Source: Halioglobus japonicus
GTDB lineage: Bacteria; Pseudomonadota; Gammaproteobacteria; Pseudomonadales; Halieaceae
Assembly (NCBI RefSeq): GCF_001983995.1
Contig: NZ_CP019450.1
Span: forward strand, 2,480,001-2,544,000
DNA length: 64,000 nt
Direction of reading: 5' to 3'
The number at the start of each line of letters is the position of its first letter. The first letter of the stretch is position 1. Positions 30,684-35,123 of this stretch are shown here, in pieces. The notes beneath the pieces were generated by a model, which ran no database searches, was not told the DNA's origin, and worked only from the letters and a program-made list of their open reading frames with translations. The position numbers and the translations under genes are program-made.

Positions 30684-31853
30684 ATGAATCTTCATGAGTA
30701 TCAGGGCAAGCAACTGTTTGCCGAATACGGACTGCCGGTATCCAAGGGGTACGCAGTAGACTCCCCTGAGGATGCGGCAGAAGCGGCGGATCTGATTGGC
30801 GGTGATATGTGGGTGGTTAAAGCCCAGGTACACGCAGGTGGTCGCGGCAAGGCCGGCGGCGTAAAGTTGGTCAAGTCCAAGGATGAGATCAGGGAATTCG
30901 CCTCCAACTGGCTCGGCAAAAACCTGGTGACCTACCAGACTGACGAAAATGGTCAGCCGGTAAGCAAGATCCTGGTGGAATCCTGCACTGACATTGCCGA
31001 AGAACTGTACCTCGGTGCAGTGGTGGATCGCTCCACACGTCGTATCGTGTTCATGGCGTCTACCGAAGGCGGTGTTGAAATCGAGAAGGTAGCCGAGGAA
31101 ACTCCCGAGAAAATCCTCAAGGCGACCATCGATCCTCTCGCGGGTCCGCAGCCCTACCAGGGCCGTGACCTGGCGTTCAAGCTCGGCCTGACCGGTGTTC
31201 AGATCAAGCAGTTCGTTAAAATCTTCATGGGCCTGGCCCAGATGTTCATCGACAAGGACCTGGCGCTGATCGAGATCAACCCGCTGGTGATCACCGATGA
31301 AGGCAGCCTGCACTGCCTGGACGCCAAGATCGGCGTCGACAGCAATGCCCTGTACCGTCAGGCGGATCTGCGTGAAATGCACGATCCCTCACAGGAAGAC
31401 GAGCGCGAAGCGCACGCTGCCCAGTGGGAACTGAACTATGTGGCCCTGGACGGCAACATCGGCTGCATGGTCAACGGTGCTGGTCTGGCCATGGGCACCA
31501 TGGACATCGTTGCACTGCACGGTGGTTTCCCGGCCAACTTCCTGGACGTGGGTGGCGGCGCTACCAAGGAACGTGTTTCCGAGGCGTTCAAGATCATTCT
31601 GTCTGACGACAACGTAAAAGCGGTACTGATCAACATCTTCGGCGGTATCGTACGCTGTGACCTGATCGCAGAAGGCGTGATCGGCGCGGTCGAAGAAGTG
31701 GGCGTGGAAGTGCCCGTCGTTGTGCGTCTGGAAGGCAACAACGCCGAACTGGGCAAGAAAGTACTGGCTGAGTCCGGTCTGAACATCATCGCTGCAGAGA
31801 GCCTCACTGACGCTGCTCAGCAGGCAGTTAAAGCAGCAGGAGGAGCGGCATAA
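30684..31853 (+). CDS. sucC: Succinyl-CoA synthetase beta subunit SucC
   Basis: ATP-grasp subunit, 389 residues, forming succinate and a nucleoside triphosphate from succinyl-CoA with SucD. N-terminal [16 protein letters not shown], nucleotide-binding [17 protein letters not shown], and C-terminal [15 protein letters not shown] are canonical. It shares a base with sucD (TAATG), a tight coupling fitting an obligate heteromer. A 129-nt gap separates it from lpd; no clear terminator stands there. Confidence 0.97.
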
Positions 31854-32725
31854 TGAGCGTTCTGATTAACAAGGATACCAAGGTTATCTGTCAGGGCTTC
31901 ACTGGCTCCCAGGGTACTTTCCACTCTGAGCAGGCGATTGAGTACGGTACTAAAATGGTTGGCGGTGTGACCCCCGGTAAGGGCGGTCAGGAACACCTGG
32001 GCCTGCCGGTATTCAACACGGTTGCCGAGGCGGTAGAAGCCACAGGCGCAGAAGCGTCCGTTATCTACGTGCCTGCACCGTTCTGTAAGGACTCCATCCT
32101 TGAAGCGGCCAACGGCGGCATCAAGCTGATCGTATGCATTACCGAAGGCATTCCCACGCTGGATATGCTCGATGCGAAAGTAAAATGTGACGAGCTGGGC
32201 GTACGCTTGATCGGCCCCAACTGCCCGGGCGTTATCACACCGGGAGAGTGCAAAATCGGCATCATGCCGGGTCACATTCACCTGCCGGGCAAGGTAGGCA
32301 TTGTGTCTCGCTCCGGTACCCTGACCTACGAAGCGGTCAAGCAGACCACAGACGCGGGCTACGGCCAGTCTACCTGTGTCGGCATCGGCGGCGACCCGAT
32401 CCCTGGCTCCAACTTCATCGACATCCTGGAGATGTTCCAGAACGATCCTGCGACTGAAGCAATCGTGATGATCGGTGAAATCGGCGGGACTGCGGAAGAG
32501 GAAGCGGCAGCCTACATCAAGGCTAACGTCACCAAGCCGGTCGTATCCTACATTGCCGGTGTTACTGCACCGAAAGGCAAGCGTATGGGGCACGCGGGCG
32601 CGATCATCTCTGGCGGCAAGGGCACTGCAGACGAGAAGTTTGCGGCTCTGGAAGACGCTGGTGTGAAGACTGTTCGCTCTCTGGCGGACATCGGCAAGGC
32701 GCTGGCGGAGATTACCGGCTGGTAA
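31853..32725 (+). CDS. sucD: Succinyl-CoA synthetase alpha subunit SucD
   Basis: 290-residue subunit that binds CoA and is transiently phosphorylated on histidine. [18 protein letters not shown] binds CoA, and the phosphohistidine lies in [11 protein letters not shown] near residue 247. GPNCPGVI and [12 protein letters not shown] are conserved. It is the last gene of the sdh-suc cluster; a REP-like palindrome and a strong terminator follow. Confidence 0.97.
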
Positions 32726-32742
32726 TTGCTGCTACCCCTGTC

Positions 32743-32762
32743 ATCCCGGCGGAGGCCGGGAT
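32743..32762. repeat. REP-like palindrome downstream of sucD
   Basis: ATCCCGGC (32743-32750) / GCCGGGAT (32755-32762) with a GGAG loop, within a TCATCCCGG...CCGGGATCCAG context. This resembles dispersed repetitive extragenic palindromes seen in many proteobacteria. It may protect the operon 3' end or be the footprint of a REP-associated transposase elsewhere. Confidence 0.6.
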
Positions 32763-32775
32763 CCAGTGAGGAAGA

Positions 32776-32808
32776 GGGCTCATCTGATAGATGGGCCCTT
32801 TTTTTTTG
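32776..32808 (+). terminator. Terminator of the sdh-suc cluster
   Basis: Ten-bp stem GGGCTCATCT (32776-32785) / AGATGGGCCC (32789-32798), one pair being G-U, with a GAT loop and a ten-T tract. Confidence 0.9.
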
Positions 32809-32815
32809 GTTTCGG

Positions 32816-32957
32816 CGCATCTATACCGATTACTGTGCGGCCGGAGGGGTATTCCTGGGACCGCCAAAAGCGCCTTCCGTGGCAGGCTTGCGGCTCCGCC
32901 ATCCATGGCTCCGCACATCCCAGGAATACCCCTCCGGCCGCACAGCAATCTCTGTTG
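32816..32957. repeat. Long hairpin repeat element, copy A
   Basis: The shared lead-in CGCATCTATACCGAT (32816-32830) overlaps a long inverted repeat. The arms at 32833-32860 and 32918-32945 are perfectly complementary over 28 bp, and one mismatch away they extend by four more pairs. They enclose a 57-nt loop (32861-32917) containing CCGCCAAA, TGGCAGGCTTG and CATCCATGG. The element ends near ATCTCTGTTGG. No gene fits here. Copy B begins 172 nt downstream with different arms but a same-length, similar loop. Confidence 0.8.
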
Positions 32958-32987
32958 GAAGCACTTGAAATCAATATGGGTTGGGTT

Positions 32988-33127
32988 CGCATCTATACCG
33001 ATCTCTGCCCGGCTGGGGTACCTGACGGGGACCGCCAAACGGCGTCATCCATGACAGGCTTGGGCTGCGCTATCCATGGGTTCGCACATCCCCGCCAGGT
33101 ACACCAGCCTGGCAGATATCTCTCTCG
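32988..33127. repeat. Long hairpin repeat element, copy B
   Basis: Starts with the same CGCATCTATACCGAT as copy A. Arms at 33005-33031 and 33089-33115 pair over 27 positions with three mismatches and enclose a 57-nt loop (33032-33088), the same length as in copy A and sharing CCGCCAAA, GACAGGCTTG, TATCCATGG and TTCGCACA. Arm sequences differ from copy A yet remain complementary. It ends near ATCTCTCTCGAG, just before the htpG promoter. Confidence 0.8.
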
Positions 33128-33132
33128 AGTGG

Positions 33133-33160
33133 GTTGAATTTGATTGTTTTTGCCCCATAT
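33133..33160 (+). promoter_or_regulatory. Sigma32 (heat-shock) promoter of htpG
   Basis: GTTGAAT (33133-33139), 13-nt spacer, CCCCATAT (33153-33160). The CCCCATnT -10 element and TTGAA -35 at this spacing are the RpoH consensus, and htpG is a classic heat-shock gene. Confidence 0.78.
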
Positions 33161-33206
33161 CTGAGGGGAGCATTTTTTTTAGTCAGTTAGCACTCGAGGA
33201 AACGTA

Positions 33207-35123
33207 ATGACTGCCGACGCCAATAAGGAAACTCTGGGCTTCCAGACCGAGGCGAAGCAACTGCTTCACCTGATGATTCACTCCCTGTACTCCAACAAGG
33301 AAATCTTCCTGCGGGAGCTGATTTCCAATGCCTCTGATGCGATCGACAAGCTGCGTTTCGCCGCGCTGTCCGATGGCGGCCTGCTTGAAGGGCAGGGCGA
33401 CTATCAGGTGCAGGTCGATGTCGATAAGGACGCCAACACGATCACCATTTCCGATAATGGCATTGGCATGAATCGCGACGAGGTGATTGAGCACCTGGGA
33501 ACGATCGCCAAGTCTGGCACCGCGGCATTCCTTGAGAGCCTGACGGGTGATCAACAGAAAGATTCGCAGCTGATTGGTCAGTTTGGTGTGGGCTTCTACT
33601 CGGCATTCATCGTGGCCGATCGAGTTGCAGTCCATACCCGTAAGGCGGGCGAGGCGGCCGATACGGGCGTTATCTGGGAATCCGCGGGCGAGTCTGAGTT
33701 CTCGGTGGAAGTGCGTGACAAGGCGGATCGTGGCACGAGCATTACCCTGTTCCTGAAAGAGGGCTGTGAGGAGTTTGCTGAGGACTTCCGCGTGCGCAGC
33801 GTGATCAAGAAGTACTCAGACCACATCGCTGTGCCGGTCATGATGCTTAAGCCGGCCATGCCTGCGGCTGAAGATGAAGAAGAGACGGTTGTCGAGGTGC
33901 CTGAGTACGAGGCGGTCAACGAAGCGACGGCGCTGTGGACTCGCAGCCGCGCGGAAGTGTCGGATGAGGAATACAAGGAATTCTACAAGCACATCTCCCA
34001 CGACTTTGAAGAGCCCCAGACCTGGAGCCACAACAAGGTCGAGGGCAAGCTGGAATACACCAGCCTGTTGTACATCCCCAAGAAGGCGCCCTTTGATATG
34101 TGGAACCGCGACATGGCGCGCGGTCTCAAGCTCTATGTTCAGCGCACCTTTATCATGGATGAGGCTGAGCAGTTCCTGCCGCTGTACCTGCGCTTTGTGA
34201 AGGGTGTTATCGATTCAAACGATCTGCCGCTAAACGTTTCGCGTGAGATTTTGCAGCAGGAAGGATCGGTGGATTCCATGCGCAGTGCGCTGACCAAGCG
34301 CGTGCTGGATATGCTGGGTAAGCTGGCCAAGAAAGAGGGCGACGACTACGCCCAGTTCTGGACTGAGTTTGGCCAGGTGATCAAGGAAGGTCCGGCGGAA
34401 GATTTTGCCAACAAGGAAAAAATTGCCAAGTTGCTGCGCTTTGCCACCACTCACACTGACGCAGAGGCGCAGGACCAGTCTCTGGAAGATTACGTGTCTC
34501 GGATGCCCGAAGGGCAGGACAAGATCTTCTACGTGGTAGCGGAGAACTTCAATACTGCCAAGAGCAGCCCCCACCTGGAGGTGTTCCGTAAGAAGGGCAT
34601 TGAAGTGCTGCTGCTGTCTGATCGCGTAGACGATTGGCTGATGAATCACCTGCAGGACTTTGACGGCAAGGCGTTCCAGGATGTGGCGCGCGGCGCGCTG
34701 GATCTGGCCACGGATTCCGAGGAAGAGAAAGCCGAGCAGGAGAAGGTTCAGAAGGAAGCGGAAGGCCTGGTTGAGCGTCTGTCAAAGGTGCTCGACGACA
34801 AGGTTGCCGAGGTTCGCGCCACGTCGCGTCTGACCGATTCACCGGCCTGTCTGGTTGTGGGTGACTTCGATATGGGTGCGCAGATGAAGCGAATCATGGA
34901 AGCGGCGGGGCAGGCGGTGCCCGAGTCCAAGCCGATTCTGGAGGTCAATCCATCGCATCCGATTCTGGAGATGCTCGATAGCGAGCAGGACGAGGATCGT
35001 TTCGCTGATCTGGCGGGCATAGTCTTCGACCAGGCGAACCTCGCAGAGGGCGGTCAACTCGACGACCCTGCGGCGTATGTCTCCAAACTCAATAAATTGC
35101 TACTGGCCCTGGCGGGTCGCTAG
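33207..35123 (+). CDS. htpG: Hsp90-family chaperone HtpG
   Basis: Cytosolic ATP-dependent dimeric chaperone, 638 residues. The N-terminal GHKL ATPase has [15 protein letters not shown], the nucleotide-binding DNGIGM and [11 protein letters not shown] motifs. A middle domain with [11 protein letters not shown] supplies the catalytic arginine, and a C-terminal dimerisation domain runs from about 510. The residues are the family's usual length. A heat-shock promoter and ribosome site GAGGAAA precede the ATG, and a terminator follows, so it is a single-gene unit. Confidence 0.97.

Follow-up and report, generated by a model that had tools for sequence, protein, structure and literature searches.

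Two hairpins between sucD and htpG of Halioglobus japonicus resemble TwoAYGGAY RNA and belong to a multi-copy family of candidate CsrA-binding elements

The window analyzed here is a stretch of 64,000 nt from the genome of Halioglobus japonicus (assembly GCF_001983995.1, contig NZ_CP019450.1, positions 2,480,001 to 2,544,000). Within it, two plus-strand genes, sucD (succinyl-CoA ligase CoA-binding subunit, 31853..32725) and htpG (Hsp90, 33207..35123), are separated by a gap which holds two hairpins at 32816-33127. Both are putative TwoAYGGAY-like hairpin RNAs on the minus strand. Element 1 lies at 32821..32957, which is also the extent of its match to the Rfam model RF01731 (35.6 bits). Its 5' arm (32918..32950) and 3' arm (32828..32860) are 33 nt each and 97% complementary, and the 57 nt between them carry a first loop, C-AUGGAU-G (32900..32907), and a second loop, C-ACGGAA-G (32874..32881). 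Element 2 lies at 32997..33123 (RF01731, 18.4 bits). Its arms are 32 nt each (5' arm 33089..33120, 3' arm 33000..33031) and form 28 Watson-Crick pairs, one G.U pair and three other mismatches around a loop of, again, 57 nt. The first of its small loops, AUGGAU at 33071..33078, has lost the closing C-G pair (C..A), and the second, C-AUGGAU-G, is at 33046..33053. A preliminary description of this DNA had reported two hairpins with an exact 57-nt spacing, which is real in both copies, and arms of 27-28 bp, which are in fact a little longer. It had also reported that both copies open with CGCATCTATACCGAT (32816-32830 and 32988-33002) and have loop blocks in common, as they do. Its view of the strand needed correction: the minus strand is the conserved one, so what had been seen as loop blocks were the GGA loops in reverse complement.

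On the minus strand the shared opening becomes a 3' extension, at 32816..32830 in Element 1 and, with the same sequence, at 32988..33002 in Element 2. Judged by eye, the 3' extension of the family is weakly conserved and CCGnCGnGTAnAGAAC-like, with CGCATCTATACCGAT as its reverse complement. A GTANAG-type match was found 3' of 11 of the 114 elements compared below, versus 1 and 2 in two controls, and CGCATCTATACCGAT is no strong mark of the family. The folding z-score of the locus was -8.8 on the plus strand and -9.8 on the minus strand, and none of 100 shuffles equalled it on either strand.

The gap has other features. Just 3' of sucD, at 32742-32764, is a short separate palindrome, CATCCCGGCGGAGGCCGGGATCC, which we take to be similar to common REP-like repeats. 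On the 3' side of sucD a stem resembling a terminator, its T-run ending at about 32807, was seen by eye; the terminator scan did not report it. Upstream of htpG, at 33133-33160, is GTTGAAT...CCCCATAT, which presumably resembles a heat-shock sigma-32 promoter, and several relatives without the elements have CTTGAAA and a CCCCAT-like block at the matching place. The arms of the window pair gave only short, chance-like matches when compared with the genome, and the idea that they are guides for, or copies of, sequence elsewhere was rejected on that basis. A plasmid or phage origin of the pair was rejected as well, with no matches in either collection, as were mir-23 and similar Rfam families, whose matches were to the long stem and far under cut-off.

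The preliminary description stated that no known pattern matches these hairpins, and this was wrong. Element 1 matches RF01731 with an E value of 0.0005, though under the curated cut-off of 43 bits, and Element 2 with an E value of 4.4. In TwoAYGGAY RNAs a long outer stem surrounds two neighboring hairpins whose loops read AYGGAY, and an outer stem around both hairpins is present here. As for the loops, Element 2 has AUGGAU twice, once without the C-G closing pair, and Element 1 has AUGGAU and ACGGAA, the latter departing from the consensus at the last Y. The elements differ from TwoAYGGAY in their wider loops (ANGGAN), in arms which are long and nearly free in sequence, and in the tens of copies per genome. 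The taxa listed for TwoAYGGAY include Gammaproteobacteria (in a table of PMC2864571). Integron attC sites, which have conserved core ends and a variable loop, were set aside on anatomy, since the elements have variable arms and a conserved center.

RF01731 found 18 places in the H. japonicus genome, including both window copies, and none of the 18 reached the cut-off. At the cut-off the model found nothing in 15 loci of this genome and nothing in 20 loci of relatives. The 18 places were aligned on the RNA strand and made into a covariance model, R1, which matched Element 1 at 32829-32949 (100.5 bits) and Element 2 at 32999-33121 (70 bits). In the whole genome R1 gave 39 matches, of which four were reverse-strand shadows, leaving 35 copies at 24 sites; 150 of 1123 candidates were scored, so 35 is a lower bound. 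The preliminary description depended on further copies existing, and they were found, at 35 distinct places in the genome. Among 17 loci found by R1 in distant genomes, two pass the RF01731 cut-off (51.5 and 45.2 bits), which suggests that bona fide TwoAYGGAY grades into the window elements, the latter part of the continuum falling outside the present Rfam model. Judging from these sequence matches, the window elements are very probably kin of TwoAYGGAY.

The comparisons below use 114 elements: 35 from H. japonicus, 22, 22, 18 and 8 from four genomes of the same genus (all 70 matches of G001, G003, G005 and G006), and nine of the 28 matches in one genome of the same order (G055). G004 and other element-bearing relatives are outside this set, as are at least five further matches in the fetched stretches (L155, L157, L160, L166 and L203). 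Some elements depart from the common form. Twelve of the 114, from five genomes, have an insert, CGGCCGGCGnnCCGG, between the two loops (for example at 3632155, 3657807 and 3926585 of the H. japonicus contig, G000:C1), and by their sequence these would be a subtype forming a third small hairpin. At G000:C1 1497285 and 2601302 are shortened elements with one GGA hairpin left inside the long stem. Beside the element at G000:C1 2410835 (L110), in its 5' flank, GGGCTGCA units form a short tandem array.

The preliminary description had suggested a structured RNA family, and with copies throughout the genome the covariation bears this out. In alignment A1, 30 of 40 pairs vary on both sides, none of 500 shuffles reached the covariation score, and 90.4% of cells pair versus 68.5% when shuffled. 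Alignment A2 (142 rows) has both-side changes in 36 of 40 pairs with 93.6% of cells paired, and here too the covariation score was reached by none of 500 shuffles; it was fitted to the model and includes nine reverse-strand shadow rows, so its pair counts are slightly impure, and A1 is unaffected. When the partner was slid by one column, paired cells fell to 41.7-48.2% in A1 and 41.9-44.4% in A2.

The constraint on pairing is seen on one strand. The outer arms of the 114 elements, aligned with G.T and A.C scored alike as mismatches, contain 2572 Watson-Crick pairs, 171 G.U, 15 A.C and 130 others, among which G.A (69) can be set against C.T (9), and G.G (35) against C.C (6). Element by element, G.U outnumbers A.C in 85, A.C outnumbers G.U in 4, and 25 are ties, and the bias of G.U over A.C is present in each of the six genomes. 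An excess of G.U over A.C on the TwoAYGGAY strand suggests that folding is probably selected on that one strand, and since the elements sit on both strands of the chromosome, unselected mutation gives no plain reason for the bias. The pattern of mismatches fits a folded single strand of DNA equally well as RNA. The selection on pairing therefore probably acts on the TwoAYGGAY strand, in the form of RNA or, with lower probability, of single-stranded DNA.

The inner hairpins were compared with known binding sites of CsrA. As described in passages of PMC7652899, the CsrA/RsmA site is an ANGGAN hexaloop in which N is free, a CsrA dimer can bridge sites 10-63 nt apart and does so best above 18 nt, and most SELEX hairpins have four or fewer contiguous pairs; passages of PMC4894983 describe CANGGANG hexaloops as CsrA sites. 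A two-loop architecture is the rule among the elements: C-A(N)GGA-N-G hairpins with at least three stem pairs occur twice in 90 of the 114, once in 23 and in one not at all, and on the opposite strand they occur in 0 of 114. The loops number 203, of which 194 are ANGGA and nine are AGGA, without the first N. In the 194 ANGGA loops the first N is T in 135, G in 42, C in 14 and A in 3, and the second N is T in 131, C in 50, A in 8 and G in 5. Motif starts in the 90 two-hairpin elements are a median of 25 nt apart (range 23-41). The H. japonicus genome is the weakest in this respect, with two loop hairpins in 18 of its 35 elements, one in 16 and none in one; window copy 1 has two hairpins which pass the rule, and window copy 2 has one. 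As read from their sequence, the elements have the form expected of CsrA sites, with an A(N)GGA loop closed by C-G and a spacing within the published 10-63 nt. As a counterpoint to the SELEX hairpins, the small hairpins here sit on a very long stem.

Rfam clan CL00106 contains both RF01731 and CsrB of E. coli K-12. Taken with the loop consensus and the spacing, this makes it quite probable that CsrA binds the elements. CsrA binding of TwoAYGGAY was proposed in 2014 from motif matches, in a paper whose accessible passages call its validation work in progress (PMC4333381), and no test of it was found in the accessible parts of the TwoAYGGAY literature. Of the 23 element-bearing genomes in the class sample, 22 have CsrA (the exception is a 67%-complete genome), as do 235 of all 274 class genomes (co-occurrence Fisher p 0.22) and 16 of 16 chosen genomes. 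Because CsrA is so common, its co-occurrence with the elements proves little and is only consistent with binding, and the presence of CsrA was rejected as a discriminating test.

Two known systems offer a comparison. The antagonist sRNAs of the Csr/Rsm systems (CsrB, CsrC, RsmY, RsmZ) also have GGA motifs in hairpin loops, and CsrB shares its clan with RF01731. Passages of PMC11882849 give 22 and 14 GGA motifs for CsrB and CsrC, and describe promoters and terminators as the means by which Csr-type sRNAs were recognized; the elements here differ in having two loops each and in giving negative promoter scans. The flaA 5'UTR of Campylobacter jejuni, as passages of PMC4894983 describe it, carries two neighboring hexaloops of CANGGANG-like sequence, spaced 21 nt apart, which titrate CsrA within an mRNA. 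It is, however, a single 5'UTR which overlaps the ribosome-binding site, whereas the elements here are dispersed and mostly near gene ends.

The placement of the elements was examined with neighboring genes called by a simple ORF rule. A gene converges on the 3' side of 79 of the 114 elements, with a median of 56 nt between its stop codon and the element, and the 5' neighbor is on the same strand in 83 of the 113 elements with a called neighbor. Within the set, 26 pairs lie within 500 bp of each other: 24 back to back, two in tandem, of which the window pair is one, and none face to face. The five extra matches named above each make one more back-to-back pair, judged by coordinates, and two face-to-face pairs are present in G014, outside the set. 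Simple consensus scans found no promoter signal upstream of the elements, and no sigma70-like site at 32680-33300 of the window. A strict terminator scan of the 3' flanks of the 114 elements found one sense and six antisense terminators. We considered that an element might be a separate sRNA gene with a promoter of its own, and that back-to-back pairs might share a bidirectional terminator; neither the promoter count nor the terminator scan supported this. Read-through from the same-strand neighbor is possible for most elements; the window pair, by the genes called, is an exception, with no called upstream gene reading the minus strand.

This layout can also be read in structural terms. The long stem might protect or process 3' ends, or block read-through between convergent genes, with the GGA loops being secondary. 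The 79 elements with a convergent 3' gene close to its stop codon, the 24 of 26 close pairs which are back to back, and an arm constraint which is mainly on pairing all agree with such a role. It leaves unexplained, however, why A-GGA is kept in the loops while N varies and why the core is conserved above the arms, and sense terminators follow just one of the 114 elements. We consider a purely structural role at gene ends quite unlikely.

The elements are present among the relatives of H. japonicus in a patchy manner. R1 matches were found in 35 of 58 genomes and, with reduced scoring, in 23 of the 274 class genomes, with H. japonicus included in both counts. Up to 62 candidates per genome were scored in the 58-genome search and at most 13 per genome in the class search, and the numbers of copies and of genomes are accordingly minimum values. 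Two genomes of the same genus, G002 and G007, gave no R1 matches among 150 candidates scored, and double as a negative control for the model. At the sucD-htpG site itself, seven relatives with the same gene order (G002, G003, G007, G008, G010, G020 and G021) have no elements in the stretches read by eye, which implies that the window pair is either a gain of its lineage or the result of repeated loss. In five other genomes the site was not comparable in this way: four have a different neighbor or sequence and one is at a contig end.

Arms and cores change at different rates. Arm identity between copies within H. japonicus is 40%, versus 28% for shuffled arms. Core identity is 70% within the genome and 57-61% to the four same-genus genomes. 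The best arm identity within any one genome (114 elements) is 0.77, which is unlike fresh copies. In some species the elements are present near the same genes: 34 locus pairs share flanking genes between species, shared within the few kb fetched and not matched gap by gap. For 31 of these the arms were compared, taking the best identity among the possible pairings, and identity was at most 0.44 in 12 pairs, 0.50-0.54 in 5 and at least 0.60 in 14; unrelated copies also reach up to 0.77. Four-fold site identity of the 31 locus pairs was 0.44-0.81. From these comparisons we infer that arm sequence turns over rapidly without loss of pairing, the behavior expected of sequence that is neutral except for having to pair. 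One locus pair stands apart. L159 (in G001) and L186 (in G006), near the same genes, have arms which are 98% identical and an identical core, with just 64% identity at the four-fold sites of the flanking genes and different immediate flanks. Their likeness may reflect either an element exchanged recently or some unusual constraint.

The preliminary description had also suggested a mobile extragenic element, and here the evidence is divided. The elements could be mobile DNA of the REP/REPIN kind, single-stranded hairpins recognized by a Y1 (RAYT) transposase, with no role as RNA. Like REP, BIME and REPIN sequences, they are hairpins in intergenic DNA that lie downstream of genes and frequently form opposed pairs (PMC3733652, PMC2817692 and PMC3116915), and the folding of single-stranded DNA would likewise give a strand-specific tolerance of mismatches. 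Their patchy presence, including their absence at sucD-htpG in seven relatives with the same gene order, points the same way. Within the genus (G000-G007), Y1 transposase and elements go together, with both in six genomes and neither in two. Five R1-positive members (G000, G001, G003, G005 and G006) have one Y1_Tnp gene each, and the gene and the elements are both missing from G002 and G007. This is not so in the wider family, where Y1_Tnp was found in 15 of 29 genomes with elements versus 2 of 8 without (p 0.25), and where three genomes lack Y1_Tnp although 24, 20 and 19 matches are listed for them. Around Y1_Tnp genes, no R1 match was found in any of ten stretches, each 8-10 kb long. RAYT-driven mobility thus looked promising on 16 genomes and was not upheld on 58, and the genus-level association is possibly accidental. 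There is also no sign of target duplication, as the longest common word of the two flanks averages 5.32 versus 5.31 when shuffled (114 elements). Unlike conserved REP stems, arms of copies within H. japonicus are just 40% identical, and the unpaired copies of this genome are evenly placed, seven on the plus strand and seven on the minus. REPs are 20-40 bp long and most have GTAG or CGTC tags; the elements here measure about 120 nt, contain two inner hairpins and lack a dependable link to Y1_Tnp. We regard REP-like mobile DNA as an unlikely account of the family, and transposition, lacking target duplications and a dependable Y1 transposase, is disfavored.

A decayed MITE family, in which the elements are remnants of insertions with inverted ends, seems very improbable. 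It draws on one distant genome, G305 (L226-L233), where the eight examined copies are near-identical and seven of them sit inside a larger MITE-like unit which has terminal inverted repeats of about 16 bp and whose ends, by eye, carry direct duplications of about 9-10 bp. That unit, however, encloses the element as cargo, and in the 114 elements from H. japonicus and its relatives the end marks (AGG...CCG) are short and weak and duplications are no commoner than with shuffled flanks. The MITE reading is disfavored; the G305 cargo shows that elements can be carried along.

The reading we prefer, and consider moderately probable, is that the window hairpins are a long-armed, multi-copy variant of TwoAYGGAY in which a CsrA dimer grips both loops, and which serves for titration or for tagging of the host RNA. 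In this model the minus strand would fold into a long stem of free sequence which holds out two small ANGGAN-loop hairpins about 25 nt apart. Most likely, one CsrA/RsmA dimer would bind per element, gripping both loops at once. The elements would sit in intergenic RNA, usually near a gene end, and probably either many weak sponges would jointly lower free CsrA, or each element would tie CsrA to its own host RNA. That they form a distributed sponge, dozens of two-site elements each in a different intergenic or 3'-end transcript, is a tentative idea. CsrA binding of TwoAYGGAY is the proposal made in 2014, and what is new here is the copy number, the behavior of the arms and the layout. No report of dispersed multi-copy elements within one genome was found in the accessible TwoAYGGAY literature, and the passages on CsrA with repeats or multiple copies describe other Csr-type sRNAs (including PMC11882849).

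TwoAYGGAY has had no known function since its listing in 2010, and 35 copies in one genome, with strong covariation and clean CsrA-type loops, make the CsrA idea directly testable. At the curated cut-off, an entire subfamily escapes the Rfam model. If the preferred reading holds, a CsrA-type RNA element can be scattered through a genome in the manner of a repeat, and if the elements do act as a distributed sponge, CsrA availability would read out the summed transcription of many loci rather than that of one or two dedicated sRNA genes.
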